NCBI RefSeq assembly: GCF_014200495.1
Contig: NZ_JACHBY010000005.1
Span: 372,001-436,000 of the forward strand
From: Mucilaginibacter geliditolerans
GTDB lineage: Bacteria > Bacteroidota > Bacteroidia > Sphingobacteriales > Sphingobacteriaceae
Direction: 5' to 3'
Length of the DNA stretch: 64,000 nucleotides
Position numbers and translations under genes: made by a program. The notes beneath the pieces are model-generated. The model saw only the letters and a program-made list of their open reading frames with translations, ran no database searches and was not told the origin of the DNA. Shown here piece by piece: positions 1 through 5,195 of the stretch (position 1 is the stretch's first letter; each line of letters begins with the position of its first letter).

Positions 1-1
1 C

Positions 2-325
2 CCTGAACTGGGGCGTGTGGGCATCAGCGAGGAGGAAGCTAAAAAGCAGAAACTGAACGTTAAAATTGCTAAATTGCCTATGGAGCATGTAGCCCGGGCG
101 ATAGAAAATGGTGATACACGCGGATTTATGAAGGCCGTGGTTGATGCGGATACCAAAAAGATATTAGGCGCGGCTGTTTTAGGCAGCCAGGGTGGCGAGA
201 TCATGACGGTATTGCAGATGGCTATGGAGGGTGGTATTACTTATGACCGTATCAGGTATTGCGTATTTGCGCACCCTACGTATTCCGAATCGCTGAATAA
301 CCTGTTTATGCCACTTGAACCCTAG
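2..325 (+). CDS. Pyridine nucleotide-disulfide oxidoreductase, C-terminal part
   Basis: The gene enters from outside the window; the open frame begins at base 2, so only the last 107 residues are visible. The piece is the dimerisation domain of the glutathione reductase, mercuric reductase and lipoamide dehydrogenase family. It starts with [13 protein letters not shown], typical of that domain, and near the end has [10 protein letters not shown], which carries the His-x-x-x-x-Glu pair that serves as proton relay in disulfide reductases. The N-terminal FAD domain with the redox CxxxxC is out of view, so the substrate cannot be told. It ends 9 bases before the EgtV-like ATPase gene and is probably co-transcribed with it. 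From that context I infer a role in reducing a low-molecular-weight disulfide, possibly ergothioneine disulfide. A general mercuric-reductase-like role is equally possible. Confidence 0.85.
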
Positions 326-334
326 GCGCTCTGT

Positions 335-1291
335 ATGATAAAGGTTGAACATCTAAGCAAACACTTCGGCAAGGTAAAGGCGGTGGATGATATTTCTTTC
401 GAGGTGGCTGAGCATGAAACGCTCGTGCTTTTAGGTACCAGTGGTTGCGGTAAAACCACTACCTTGAAAATGATCAACCGGCTGATAGAGCCTACGCACG
501 GCAAGATCTTCATTAGCAATAAAAATATTCTTGAACAACAGGCGGAAATTTTACGGCGTGGCATAGGCTATGTGTTGCAGAATAACGGCCTGTTTCCGCA
601 TTATACGGTGGGGGAGAACATCGCCATTGTGCCGCAATTATTAAAGTGGGATGTGAAAAAAATACAGCATCGCGTTAGCGAACTGCTGGAAAAGCTGCAC
701 CTCTCCAATGATTATTTAAATGTTTACCCAAATGAACTAAGCGGCGGTCAGCAGCAAAGGGTAGGGCTGGCAAGGGCTTTAGTGGCCAACCCGCCGGTGT
801 TGTTGATGGATGAACCTTTCGGCGCGCTGGATAACGTGACCAAGGCAAAGATCCATGGAGAATTTAAGGCCCTGGATGAGCTGAAAAGGAAAACCATCAT
901 CATGGTTACTCATGATGTACAGGAGGCCTTTGAACTGGGCGACAGGATCTGCCTGATGGATGCAGGAAAGATAGTACAAACGGGCGTTCCCACAGAACTG
1001 CTGTTCAAACCCAAAAATAATTTTGTAAGAGATTTCCTGAACGAACAAAGATTGGAATTGGAATTCAAGGCGATCAAGCCCCCTCCGCCCCCTGAAGGGG
1101 GAACTTTTGAATTGCATGGTAAGGCTTTGCCTTCTGATGCAAGTTTGTGGTGGGTTTTGGAACAGTTGAAATTTACGGAAGGCGAAAGTATCTTCATCTT
1201 CGATCCTCAGCATAAAAAGGTTGGCGAATTAAGGTTTGAGGAATTAATGTCAGCGTTCTATCAATATAAAAAGGAGCAGGCGGATGAATGA
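335..1291 (+). CDS. egtV: Ergothioneine/betaine-type ABC transporter ATPase (EgtV/OpuCA-like)
   Basis: This is the cytoplasmic ATPase of an ABC importer of the quaternary-amine class. The 318 residues contain Walker A GTSGCGKTT (34-42), signature LSGGQQQR (135-142), Walker B VLLMDE (155-160) and switch His193. The C-terminal tail after about residue 240 is the regulatory region of OpuCA-like ATPases. It overlaps the permease gene by 8 bases, so the two are translationally coupled. OpuC-type systems import glycine betaine or choline, while the related EgtUV systems import ergothioneine. Because egtB and egtD follow directly, I favour ergothioneine as the substrate; this is an inference from context. 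Residues 249-256 (PPPPPEGG) are encoded by a C5-TGAA-G5 palindrome resembling intergenic repeats elsewhere in the window. Confidence 0.9.
   Translation: MIKVEHLSKHFGKVKAVDDISFEVAEHETLVLLGTSGCGKTTTLKMINRLIEPTHGKIFISNKNILEQQAEILRRGIGYVLQNNGLFPHYTVGENIAIVPQLLKWDVKKIQHRVSELLEKLHLSNDYLNVYPNELSGGQQQRVGLARALVANPPVLLMDEPFGALDNVTKAKIHGEFKALDELKRKTIIMVTHDVQEAFELGDRICLMDAGKIVQTGVPTELLFKPKNNFVRDFLNEQRLELEFKAIKPPPPPEGGTFELHGKALPSDASLWWVLEQLKFTEGESIFIFDPQHKKVGELRFEELMSAFYQYKKEQADE
1079..1112 (+). repeat. Palindromic repeat inside egtV (family F-like)
   Basis: A C-rich run followed by CCCCCTGAAGGGGG (hairpin arms 1088-1092 and 1097-1101) lies within the coding frame. It resembles the CCCCTCTCAAGAGGGG repeats seen between genes at about 5597 and 24382, including a following GAA-rich stretch. 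It is read as proline and glycine residues in the linker after the ATPase domain. Confidence 0.6.
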
Positions 1292-2855
1292 TCAGCAACA
1301 AACTTTGTGGCAGTTTATGCAGGAGCAGAGCGATAAGCTGCTTACCCAAACGTTGGAACATATCGGGTTAACGTTCATCTCCTTATTTTTGGCGGTATTG
1401 GTTGGTTTGCCTTTGGGGATTCTCATCGCCCGTAAAAGAAAACTATCCGGTTCGGTTTTAGGGATTGCAGGCATATTGCAAACCATACCCAGTATTGCCC
1501 TGCTGGGCTTTATGATCCCGTTGCTTGGTATCGGCCCAAAACCGGCTATTGTAGCGCTTTTATTGTACGCGCTGCTGCCTATCATCCGCAATACTTATAC
1601 CGGCATTACAGGCGTTGATGCAGCCGTTAAGGAAGCCGCAACAGCTATGGGTATGAGCCAATGGCAAATCCTATCAAAGGTTGAATTGCCGCTGGCTATG
1701 CCCGTAATATTAGCAGGCATACGCACCGCTACGGTGATAACTGTTGGCGTGGCTACACTGGCATCATACATTGCCGCGGGTGGCTTAGGGGAGTTTATTT
1801 TCGGTGGGATATCACTCAATAATACCAATATGATACTGGCAGGCGCAATACCCGCCGCTTTGCTGGCCATCATCTTTGATTTTTTACTGTCGCGAGTACA
1901 AAACCTCAACCTGAAAAAAATAAATACAGCTACAAAAGTACTGCCGCTTATACTCATTGTACTGGCATCCTTTTATCTTATTCCATCGGCTTATGGCAGT
2001 AAGCTTACCGCTGGTTTTACGCCCGAGTTTATGGGCAGGCAGGATGGTAACCTGGGACTGAAAAGTAAATATGGCCTGAAGATCCACACCATCGTAATCA
2101 GCGACGCGGTAATGTATAAGGCTGCCTATGAAAAGCAACTGGACGTAATCAGCGGCTACTCCACTGACGGCCGTTTAAAGGCTTATGGCCTGGTAGTATT
2201 AAAGGATGATAAAGGGATATTCCCGCCGTATTATGCCGCGCCAATTGTTAGGGAGGAGTCATTAAAACAGTTCCCCGAGCTGGAACAAACACTGAATCTG
2301 TTATCAGGCAAAATTAATGATACAGTGATGACGGAATTAAACTACCGTACCGACTATCTTCACGAAAGCCCGGAGCGGGTAGCAAAGGATTTTTTGGTTT
2401 CGCAAAATTTATGGAAACCGGAGCGGGGTGGTAAGGATGGTGTTGTTCGCATCGGGTCAAAGATATTTGGGGAGCAATATATCCTGGCAAATATGTACAG
2501 CATGCTGATAAAGGGTTATACCGATTATGATGTATCAACCAAAACCGGCCTCGGCGGTACAAAAATTTGTTTTGACGCATTGACCAATAACCAGATAGAT
2601 TTTTACCCTGAATATACAGGAACGGGTTTGCTGGTAATATTGCAACCACCAACAAAAACAATTAACTTAGTAGAAGCCAGTAAGGAAAAGACCTACAATT
2701 ACGACAAACAAGAGTTTGAAAGCCGTTACCACATTAAATGGTTGCAACCCATAGGTTTTAACAATGCCTATGCTTTAATGATGCGGCAAAAACAAGCAAA
2801 GGATTTGAATGTTAGAACAATAACAGATCTGAAAAATTATCTCGAAAGGAAATAA
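1284..2855 (+). CDS. egtU: ABC permease fused to a rearranged substrate-binding domain (EgtU-like)
   Basis: This 523-residue inner-membrane protein combines the permease and ligand-binding parts of the importer. Residues 20-205 form a BPD_transp_1 membrane domain with the EAA loop (EAATAMGMSQWQIL, about 117-130). A further hydrophobic segment (219-236) leads into the periplasmic domain. In OpuC/EgtU binding domains the order is GSKxFTEQYIL, YPEYTGTG, GFNNxYAL, TIxDL, then TPEFMGRxDG, YSTDGRL and DDKxxFPPYxxAPIVR. Here the second half comes first (TPEFMGRQDG at 246, YSTDGRL at 292, FPPYYAAPIV at 313) and the first half follows (GSKIFGEQYI at 391, YPEYTGTG at 441, GFNNAYAL at 491, TITDL at 512), with the protein ending there. 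The frame is open throughout, so this looks like a true circular permutation. egtB starts 2 bases after its stop codon. Ergothioneine as substrate is inferred from context. Confidence 0.88.
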   Translation: MNDQQQTLWQFMQEQSDKLLTQTLEHIGLTFISLFLAVLVGLPLGILIARKRKLSGSVLGIAGILQTIPSIALLGFMIPLLGIGPKPAIVALLLYALLPIIRNTYTGITGVDAAVKEAATAMGMSQWQILSKVELPLAMPVILAGIRTATVITVGVATLASYIAAGGLGEFIFGGISLNNTNMILAGAIPAALLAIIFDFLLSRVQNLNLKKINTATKVLPLILIVLASFYLIPSAYGSKLTAGFTPEFMGRQDGNLGLKSKYGLKIHTIVISDAVMYKAAYEKQLDVISGYSTDGRLKAYGLVVLKDDKGIFPPYYAAPIVREESLKQFPELEQTLNLLSGKINDTVMTELNYRTDYLHESPERVAKDFLVSQNLWKPERGGKDGVVRIGSKIFGEQYILANMYSMLIKGYTDYDVSTKTGLGGTKICFDALTNNQIDFYPEYTGTGLLVILQPPTKTINLVEASKEKTYNYDKQEFESRYHIKWLQPIGFNNAYALMMRQKQAKDLNVRTITDLKNYLERK

Positions 2856-2857
2856 CC

Positions 2858-4033
2858 ATGGAAACAGCTGCATATACCGAACAACTAACACTTGCTGAAC
2901 GATATATAAAGGTGCGTAAGCATACCGAAAAGATCTGTGCCCCGCTGCAAACAGAAGATTACGTGGTGCAGCCTGTGGTGGATGTTAGTCCGCCTAAATG
3001 GCATATTGGCCATACCACCTGGTTTTTTGAAACTTTTATCCTGAAACCCTATTTTATGGGTTACCAGGAATATAACCCGGAGTTCAACTACGTGTTCAAC
3101 AGCTATTATGAAACGGTAGGCAACCGCGTTATCCGTACCGACAGGGGTAATTTAAGTCGCCCAACGGTTATTGATATTATGCGCTACCGCGAATACGTGG
3201 ATGATGCCATGAACAAGTTTTTGTGCGAAGAACCATCCGAAGAAGTTAAAGAACTGCTGGTACTCGGTTTTAACCATGAGGAGCAGCACCAGGAATTGTT
3301 GTATACCGATATTAAATACATTTTAGGTCATAATCCTTTGTTCCCGGCATATTCACATGAGTATCATTCGCCCAAAGTTGAAAAAACCGACGAGGATTTT
3401 ATTATGATGGATGCAGGTATTTATGAGATAGGTTTTAATGGTGATGGCTTTTGTTTTGATAATGAACTGAACCGCCATAAAGTTTACTTAAATGCCTATG
3501 AGATAAGCCCCGATCTGGTTACGAATGCCGAATACCTGGAGTTTATCAATAGTGGTGGCTACCATGATTTTCGCCACTGGCATGCAGAGGGCTGGGATTG
3601 GGTGAATACTAACAAAGTTGAAGCACCGCTATACTGGCACCTGATACATGGTGAGTGGTATAACTACACCTACAACGGATTGGAGCCTGTTGAAATGAAG
3701 CAACCGGTTTGCCACATCAGCTATTTTGAGGCTTATGCCTTTGCCGCATGGAAAGGTATGCGCCTGGCAACTGAATTTGAATGGGAAGCTGCATCAGCGC
3801 AATTTGGCTGGGGTAAAAGCTGGGAGTGGACCGAGAGCTCATACCTGCCTTACCCGGGTTTTGCCAAAGCGCCGGGGGCAATAGGTGAGTACAATGGTAA
3901 GTTTATGGTGAATCAAAAGGTGCTGCGCGGTGCTTCGGAGGTTACATCGCCGGGTCATAGCCGTGCAACATATCGCAATTTCTTTCAAACACATCTGCGC
4001 TGGCAATTTACTGGCATAAGACTTGTAAGGTAA
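2858..4033 (+). CDS. egtB: Ergothioneine biosynthesis sulfoxide synthase EgtB
   Basis: EgtB is a non-haem iron enzyme that joins hercynine to cysteine or gamma-glutamylcysteine with oxygen, giving the sulfoxide precursor of ergothioneine. The 391 residues have an N-terminal DinB_2 fold followed by a formylglycine-generating-enzyme-like domain (from about 185). The iron-binding histidines are visible as HIGHTTW (His52) and NHEEQHQE (His140, His144). The C-terminus carries the usual WEWTESSYLPYPGF and LRGAS motifs and ends RWQFTGIRLVR. It follows egtU by 2 bases and precedes egtD by 23. Which thiol donor it uses cannot be read from sequence alone. No EgtA, EgtC or EgtE lyase gene is in the window. 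Confidence 0.95.
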   Translation: METAAYTEQLTLAERYIKVRKHTEKICAPLQTEDYVVQPVVDVSPPKWHIGHTTWFFETFILKPYFMGYQEYNPEFNYVFNSYYETVGNRVIRTDRGNLSRPTVIDIMRYREYVDDAMNKFLCEEPSEEVKELLVLGFNHEEQHQELLYTDIKYILGHNPLFPAYSHEYHSPKVEKTDEDFIMMDAGIYEIGFNGDGFCFDNELNRHKVYLNAYEISPDLVTNAEYLEFINSGGYHDFRHWHAEGWDWVNTNKVEAPLYWHLIHGEWYNYTYNGLEPVEMKQPVCHISYFEAYAFAAWKGMRLATEFEWEAASAQFGWGKSWEWTESSYLPYPGFAKAPGAIGEYNGKFMVNQKVLRGASEVTSPGHSRATYRNFFQTHLRWQFTGIRLVR

Positions 4034-4056: not shown

Positions 4057-5049
4057 ATGAACACTGCATTTTTACAAAGTCTGATAAAGGAAAAAAAGCC
4101 AGTTAAAACCGACCAGTTTTATAAGGATGTAGTTGCCGGCCTGCAATCGACGCCGAAACGCTTAAACTCCATGTATTTTTATGATGCGAATGGGGATAAG
4201 CTTTTCCAGGAGTTGATGGCCTGCGAGGAATATTACCCAACCAATTGCGAGCTGGAAATTTTCACAGAGCAAACAGGAGGACTTGCCGAAGCCATTATGG
4301 CAGGCGGTGATGCCTTCGACCTGATTGAGTTGGGTGCAGGCGATGCCATGAAATCAACCTATTTGTTGAAGCATTTGATGGAGCAAAAGGCTGATTTTAC
4401 CTATCTGCCGATTGATATATCAGATAACGTAATCTCCTTTTTACACACGACATTACCCGCAGCCCTACCCGGTATTAAAATAATCGGTTTAAACGGTGAG
4501 TATTTTGATATGCTGAAAAAAGCGGCATCGATTTCAAAAAGACGTAAGGTAGTATTATTTTTAGGATCGAATATTGGGAATATGCCGGTGAGCGATGCGG
4601 AGAATTTCTGTAAGGAACTACGTAAAAATCTTTCGGCAGGGGATATGGTGCTGATGGGTATCGACCTGAAAAAGAACCCTAAAACCGTATTGGCAGCTTA
4701 TAATGATAAGGAAGGCATTACCAAACGATTTAACCTGAACCTGCTGGAACGCATAAACCGTGAGCTTAACGCCGATTTTAATTTAGCCCAGTTTGATCAT
4801 TACCCTATATACGATCCTGAAACGGGTGCCTGCAAAAGCTATCTGATCAGTTTGATAGATCAGCAGGTGAAGATCAACGGCAAGGCGGATATCCATTTTT
4901 TTAAGGATGAATACATCTACATGGAGATCTCGCAGAAATACTCGGTAATGCAAAGCAACCAAATGGCAGATGTATCAGGCTTTAAGCCATTGAATATATT
5001 TTTTGATAGCAAGAAATGGTTTATTGACGCTATTTGGCTAGCGGAGTAA
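4057..5049 (+). CDS. egtD: L-histidine N-alpha-methyltransferase EgtD
   Basis: EgtD transfers three methyl groups from S-adenosylmethionine to the alpha-amino group of histidine to give hercynine, the substrate of EgtB. The 330 residues match the Methyltransf_33 family. YFYDANGDKLF (40-50) and EEYYPTNCELEI (57-68) form the typical N-terminal block, ELGAGD (91-96) is the SAM-binding motif, and LFLGSNIGNMP lies around residue 170. Length is normal. It is the last gene of the ergothioneine operon; a large nested inverted repeat follows 11 bases after the stop and may end transcription. Confidence 0.96.
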   Translation: MNTAFLQSLIKEKKPVKTDQFYKDVVAGLQSTPKRLNSMYFYDANGDKLFQELMACEEYYPTNCELEIFTEQTGGLAEAIMAGGDAFDLIELGAGDAMKSTYLLKHLMEQKADFTYLPIDISDNVISFLHTTLPAALPGIKIIGLNGEYFDMLKKAASISKRRKVVLFLGSNIGNMPVSDAENFCKELRKNLSAGDMVLMGIDLKKNPKTVLAAYNDKEGITKRFNLNLLERINRELNADFNLAQFDHYPIYDPETGACKSYLISLIDQQVKINGKADIHFFKDEYIYMEISQKYSVMQSNQMADVSGFKPLNIFFDSKKWFIDAIWLAE

Positions 5050-5060
5050 AAATAAGACTG

Positions 5061-5195
5061 CGCCCGTTCAAACGTCCACGCTTGAATGTTGGTTTTTGTA
5101 AGCGTCCACGCTTACGTTTAATAATGATTTTGAAGGACTTTTAGCGTAGACGCTAAAAGTCTTTTTGCATTCAAGCGTGGACGCTTGAACGGGCG
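5061..5195. repeat. Nested inverted repeat downstream of egtD
   Basis: Two 28-base outer arms (5061-5088 and 5168-5195) are inverted copies with one mismatch. Inside them lie two further near-perfect hairpins, 5098-5115 and 5137-5162. All four blocks share the core AGCGT-CNACGCT (for example AAGCGTCCACGCTT). The element could fold into a cruciform or a branched RNA and may act as an operon end. A related core, AAGCGGGACGCTT, recurs in the tandem repeat at 28236-28391. Confidence 0.8.

Follow-up and report, generated by a model that had tools for sequence, protein, structure and literature searches.

A circularly permuted binding domain in a putative betaine importer encoded beside ergothioneine genes in Mucilaginibacter and its relatives

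The window analyzed here is a 64,000-nucleotide stretch of the genome of the soil bacterium Mucilaginibacter geliditolerans, and the genes described below all lie on its forward strand. It opens within a gene for a pyridine nucleotide-disulfide reductase that starts outside it. The 3' part of this gene occupies positions 1-325 (Pyr_redox_2 and Pyr_redox_dim domains); the complete protein has 461 amino acids (L186:4941-6326) and its top NCBIfam match (PRK06370.1-4, 533.4 bits) is under the cut-off of 629. Next come genes for a ProV-like ABC ATPase (335-1291; PF00005 at 131.4 bits, and 294.8 bits against TIGR01186, under the cut-off of 326.6) and, sharing 8 bases with it, for a fused permease and binding-domain protein (1284-2855), hereafter the importer, an uninterrupted open reading frame of 523 amino acids. 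The egtB gene (2858-4033) starts 2 bases past the importer stop codon and its product exceeds the TIGR03440 cut-off (526.2 bits, cut-off 360). It is followed by a gene for an EgtD-like histidine methyltransferase (4057-5049), which matches PF10017 at 319.7 bits (cut-off 23) and TIGR03438 at 280.1 bits, under the cut-off of 290.9. Along the host genome, the genes therefore encode a DUF427 protein, the disulfide reductase, the ABC ATPase, the importer, EgtB, and EgtD, with the DUF427 gene and the flavoprotein reductase gene upstream of the importer genes at L186:4659-6326 (window 1-325). Positions 5061-5195 hold a palindromic intergenic element with 28-nt arms, which is a dispersed repeat with 42 matches in the host genome (both strands, itself included).

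The importer contains a transmembrane domain (residues 15-239, positions 1326-2000), recognized by a BPD_transp_1 match at residues 41-211 and by hydropathy, which places the final hydrophobic segment at about residues 213-239. The rest, according to Pfam and phmmer, is a binding domain of the OpuAC family in which the two sequence halves of the standard domain (N-half and C-half) stand in the order C-half, N-half. The C-half (residues 240-378, positions 2001-2417) contains E248, R252, D254, Y292, and Y316. A linker that connects the former C terminus to the former N terminus (residues 379-389, positions 2418-2450) leads to the N-half (residues 390-518, positions 2451-2837), which contains K393, F395, T426, Y444, T447, F492, N494, and Y496. 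The order of short sequence blocks behind the permease that a preliminary description had quoted is present in the open reading frame exactly so.

The OpuAC profile (PF04069) matches the importer at 189.5 bits (cut-off 21.2), split over two stretches: profile positions 111-255 come before positions 3-113, unlike the single run of 1-257 in the profile. In a phmmer comparison with PDB sequences, residues 240-378 match residues 138-276 of the EgtUC chain (122.7 bits) and residues 390-518 match EgtUC residues 10-134 (71.1 bits). The swap is explicit, because both halves of the importer match EgtUC in the opposite order, and in a positive control a normal-order domain from Bacteroidota matched EgtUC as a single collinear stretch. 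Global alignments were made with 24 normal-order domains (20 from Bacteroidota and 4 from plasmid records, with ends placed by their matches to the importer halves). Scores were 276-458 for the rotated importer domain and 171-269 for the native order, with shuffle means of 8-16; rotation raised the score for 24 of 24 references, so that native and rotated orders never scored equally. With a profile built from 52 permuted domains, the strongest stretch in each of the best 27 matches pairs the profile start, which is the C-half, with the C-terminal portion of the matched chain. The binding domain is circularly permuted, a statement that we regard as practically certain and that bears out the preliminary description: the EgtUC matches are swapped, the rotated alignment is better throughout, the order is conserved, and the structure is confidently modeled.

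AlphaFold2 predicts the permuted binding domain as a single compact domain (pLDDT 93.7, pTM 0.88), and this model aligns over its length to Bacillus subtilis OpuAC (2B4M/2B4L). The full-length model is weaker in the membrane part (pLDDT 79.5, pTM 0.60). When ligand-site residues of pneumococcal EgtU are transferred through the phmmer alignment, the importer keeps the equivalents of K242, I243, T275, T296, N339, Y341, E375, R379, D381, Y419, and Y443; the equivalent of T274 is G425. Across 120 permuted rows, which are non-independent and include many from Mucilaginibacter, N494, E248, R252, D254, Y316, and T426 are present in all 120, T447 in 119, K393 in 118, Y496 in 116, Y292 in 109, and the I243 equivalent in 96. 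Judging from these sequences, the predicted cation-cage and carboxylate residues are retained. The earlier suggestion that both lobes are present and that a ligand site could still form is upheld by the EgtUC matches of both halves, the retained site residues, and the confident model. The Y419 equivalent, Y292, is tyrosine in 109 rows, serine in 8, and phenylalanine in 3; the serine occurs in Chitinophaga/Deminuibacter rows (L054, L055, L059, L063, L067, L070, L089, and L105), which perhaps have a different ligand.

One close comparison is with EgtU from Streptococcus pneumoniae and other Firmicutes (Zhang 2022, PMC9732360; 7TXK, 7TXL), which is also a fusion of permease and binding domain with an ATPase gene adjacent. 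EgtUC shares 46% identity with the importer C-half and most ligand residues are kept; EgtU K242, N339, Y341, E375, R379, D381, Y419, and Y443 all have their counterparts in the importer, each in 109-120 of the 120 rows. However, EgtU has the normal half order and the importer the reversed one, and the importer directly precedes egtB and egtD, whereas the strings 'bacteroid', 'egtb', and 'egtd' are absent from the main text of PMC9732360. In that paper, the sole passage with 'permut' concerns the GFP of a sensor. The two proteins also differ at three positions, where EgtU has G244, F293, and Y337 and the importer has F395, Y444, and F492. The first is phenylalanine in 116 of the 120 rows and glutamine in 4 (glutamine replaces phenylalanine in L037-L040), the second is tyrosine in 120, and the third is phenylalanine in 120. 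The specificity passages of PMC9732360 tie these positions to ergothioneine, report that G244F weakens ergothioneine binding by pneumococcal EgtU about 100-fold, and give phenylalanine, tyrosine, and phenylalanine as the state of the glycine betaine protein ProX of Archaeoglobus fulgidus (AfProX; 1SW1, 1SW2), which thus shares the three diagnostic residues of the importer. AfProX also matches the profile of permuted domains in two stretches, but its half order is normal and the crystallized chain is a binding protein alone, of 275 residues. The same three residues are found in 20 Bacteroidota fusions of the order N-half, C-half, permease, whereas a Lacticaseibacillus fusion retains the EgtU state. 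The label EgtU-like in the preliminary description therefore fits the domain make-up and the genomic company, and fails at the published EgtU specificity residues, which are in the AfProX state.

In 2008, permutation was described among proteins that bind glycine betaine (PMC2395249). B. subtilis OpuAC (2B4L, 2B4M) has the order C-half then N-half like the importer, opened after the same helix, and is rotated relative to Lactococcus lactis OpuA (3L6G) at the same loop as the importer. A Lactiplantibacillus plasmid protein (L187:3075-3992) likewise differs from L. lactis OpuA by a rotation at this loop. B. subtilis OpuAC, however, has 17% identity to the importer domain, and its Trp prism, described in PMC2861598, contrasts with the Tyr cage of the importer. 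The permuted-domain profile detected no chain of the 2B4L type up to E 10, and matched L. lactis OpuA over the C-half at E 0.0055 and 0.034. We infer that the rotations in OpuAC and in the branch of the importer are independent. L. lactis OpuA (3L6G, 7AHC) and the Lacticaseibacillus plasmid fusion (L179; permease, N-half, C-half) carry the binding domain behind the permease like the importer, but in normal order. Elsewhere among ABC binding proteins, Treponema pallidum MglB-2 (Tp0684) is described in PMC4990184 as a natural circular permutation that retains ligand binding; it differs from the importer in its type I fold, its glucose ligand, its lipoprotein nature, and the place of the cut. In the open-access literature searched, which mostly leaves subscription papers outside, we found no report of a permuted domain of the EgtU/ProX type. 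The earlier proposal of a new layout therefore stands, as far as searched, for the EgtU/ProX (Tyr-cage) branch and not for the wider family, in which the rotation of OpuAC relative to OpuA is known; new to the same extent are the wide distribution of the permuted tyrosine-cage proteins and their association with ergothioneine genes.

The permuted layout is conserved well beyond the host. A full-length collinear match was found in 23 of 25 Mucilaginibacter genomes; one of the others has the match broken into two parts at the beginning of a contig, and one is without it. In the Bacteroidota sample, a collinear match from permease to N-half is present in 22 of 395 genomes (the one in G119 is interrupted by an in-frame stop), which answers the call in the preliminary description to look for the same order elsewhere in the phylum, and some match at E <=1e-20 in 61 of 395. 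With the OpuAC profile alone (E <=1e-5), 36 of 198 genomes have a match and 10 of 198 the rotated pair in one open reading frame. A scan of named genomes with the permuted alignment gave at least 80 loci in Mucilaginibacter, Pedobacter, Sphingobacterium, Chitinophaga, Segetibacter, Niastella, Dyadobacter, Spirosoma, Larkinella, Hymenobacter, Pontibacter, Fulvivirga, Lewinella, Chryseobacterium, Epilithonimonas, and others. Permease, C-half, and N-half lie in one open reading frame at 80 of the 80 loci listed, which were chosen by similarity to the permuted query, so that this is not a frequency; in all 80, 6-15 residues separate the matched halves and 1-12 trail the N-half. Two Larkinella genomes and one Pontibacter genome (L085, L092, and L107) have two permuted importers each, and one Pontibacter permuted importer lies about 2 kb from EgtD. 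The best 120 proteins for the divergent member L036, again chosen for their resemblance to a permuted query and hence giving no frequency, are all permuted (117 permease-C-N and 3 permease-permease-C-N). Their names include Geitlerinema, Baaleninema, Microcoleaceae, Aminicenantes, KSB1, Scalinduaceae, and Thermodesulfobacteriota, and by these labels the permuted layout extends past Bacteroidota into cyanobacteria and other phyla. Three proteins (P0245, P0247, and P0253, 779-805 amino acids) have tandem permease domains ahead of one permuted binding domain, and therefore a permease pair in a single chain.

Other Bacteroidota carry the binding domain first, in the order N-half, C-half, permease, at 8 of 8 loci (L041-L048) and in 20 of 20 larger regions (L159-L178; the 8 genomes are included in the 20, which were drawn from 31 candidates), and EgtD is also present in nearly all of these genomes. 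The permuted and the N-C-permease forms occur together in none of the genomes listed (up to 3 candidates per genome were scored in the 395-genome sample), and within the same scope no intermediate form was found among the genomes and loci listed, leaving the proposed origin by duplication of the domain and loss of its outer halves without support. In a permease tree, a branch sets its 43 permuted rows apart (81/89; recovered in 80% of bootstraps, which had not converged). In a tree of the rotated domains, the permuted rows are set apart only by one long-branched row, and their monophyly is not rejected (AU p 0.278). In a joint tree of 77 rows, obtained by a quick search, 63 permuted rows form one group (SH-aLRT 95), within which lie the seven rows that carry names from other phyla. 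With rooting on the N-C-permease rows as an assumption, we read this as a single origin of the permutation followed by spread between phyla. Eight Chryseobacterium/Epilithonimonas loci (L057, L066, L073, L077, L078, L086, L093, and L094) have the order EgtD, EgtB, ATPase, importer, and the two represented in the trees (L057 and L073) group with Pedobacter. Because these rows adjoin Pedobacter and the operon order differs, horizontal transfer is likely.

Genes of the ergothioneine pathway are frequent companions of the permuted importer. Across the 80 loci listed, of which 11 span under 11 kb, we found the ATPase at 76, EgtB at 56, EgtD at 54, the reductase at 43, and DUF427 at 25. EgtD (PF10017, E <=1e-40) is present in 128 of 395 Bacteroidota genomes: all 22 that carry the permuted importer and 106 of the 373 that do not (Fisher p 4.6e-12, kinship ignored). 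Counted by genus, EgtD occurs in 11 of 11 permuted genera (chance 2e-5, drawing genera). It lies within 10 kb of the importer in 16 of the 22 genomes and far away or on another contig in 6. Since the permuted importer is absent from 106 of the 128 EgtD genomes, ergothioneine synthesis does not require it. Sixteen named genomes were checked genome-wide, including 13 taken from the 19 long loci that lack a nearby EgtB or EgtD; a strong EgtD exists somewhere in 14 of the 16, including 11 of those 13. All OpuAC matches below E 1e-20 in these 16 genomes belong to permuted pairs, with two weaker matches at E 1.3e-5 and 3.1e-4. EgtD was also verified in 19 of 20 N-C-permease genomes, with EgtB and EgtD both within the fetched region at 5 of 20 loci. 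The reductase (43/80) and DUF427 (25/80) of the permuted loci are each found at 0 of 20 N-C-permease loci, and the upstream flavoprotein is a candidate ergothioneine-disulfide reductase.

The best overall explanation, held with reasonable but limited confidence, is a permuted betaine importer that probably serves ergothioneine or hercynine. Within a type I ABC importer, the gene product would be the subunit that both spans the membrane and binds the ligand, with the upstream ATPase as the putative motor. Its binding domain appears to be a permuted representative of the EgtU/ProX (Tyr-cage) branch within the OpuAC family. The old termini, both predicted in lobe D1, would be bridged by the short linker, and the chain opened at a loop of lobe D2; because of this placement, the two hinge strands should persist along with the ligand cleft, and the other lobe would tether the domain to the membrane. 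The domain would then close around a trimethylammonium betaine, dock to the permease, and hand the ligand over. That the protein is a working importer is very likely, and the odds lean slightly toward a ligand from the ergothioneine pathway. Ergothioneine or its precursor hercynine may be recaptured as leaked product, or scavenged, beside synthesis by EgtB and EgtD. It is a more tentative proposal that the permuted importer is a dedicated ergothioneine/hercynine uptake system, working with an ergothioneine-disulfide-reducing flavoprotein, in ergothioneine-making Bacteroidota, scattered cyanobacteria, and other phyla.

The main rival concerns the ligand and leaves the permutation as it is: the importer may take up glycine betaine or another osmoprotectant, with egtB and egtD as neighbors through shared stress regulation or a loose cluster. 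The three diagnostic positions, all in the state that the specificity passages of PMC9732360 assign to AfProX, fit this alternative, as does the distance of egtD (beyond 10 kb) in 6 of 22 permuted genomes. The two importer halves are moreover the only OpuAC-family matches in the host genome (E <=1e-5), and the importer would therefore be its only betaine importer of that family. On the other hand, EgtD is found in every one of the 22 permuted genomes, mostly within 10 kb, and the N-C-permease fusions keep the same EgtD company. We consider a glycine betaine ligand possible but rather unlikely.

Two further alternatives would change the meaning of the permutation itself. Type I importers are expected to contain two such chains, and with the short linker the N-half of one subunit might pair with the C-half of its partner in a swapped dimer; this is improbable, as a single chain is confidently modeled as one domain. 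The joined termini also share a lobe, EgtU residues 233-331 and 445-506 both being assigned to D1 in the structural passages of PMC9732360. The order could instead reflect an assembly chimera or a decayed pseudogene, for which the stop in G119 and the Mucilaginibacter match in pieces might be cited. The window shows neither defect, the open reading frame is open and collinear across many independent assemblies, contradicting the assembly rearrangement that the preliminary description had named as the way its claim could fail, and the predicted binding residues are conserved in the 120 permuted rows; we regard this explanation as refuted.

The permuted importer and its relatives thus offer one binding domain in rotated and unrotated natural forms whose sequence identity is still recognizable, with which the importance of the tethering lobe and of chain order for capture, docking, and delivery becomes testable in ABC importers. 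Current annotation as a fusion of permease and substrate-binding domain hides the rearrangement, and the family profile cuts the domain in two. The association with EgtB and EgtD suggests an ergothioneine transporter in Bacteroidota, a phylum on which the main text of PMC9732360 is silent, with residues to which the specificity rule set out in that paper would assign a different ligand. If dedicated ergothioneine uptake is true, a half-length rotation at the loop opposite the N terminus would be a repeatable evolutionary step for betaine-binding domains with two lobes, since it does no more than let two pseudo-symmetric lobes trade roles, and recognition of ergothioneine would not depend on the residue set published for EgtU.
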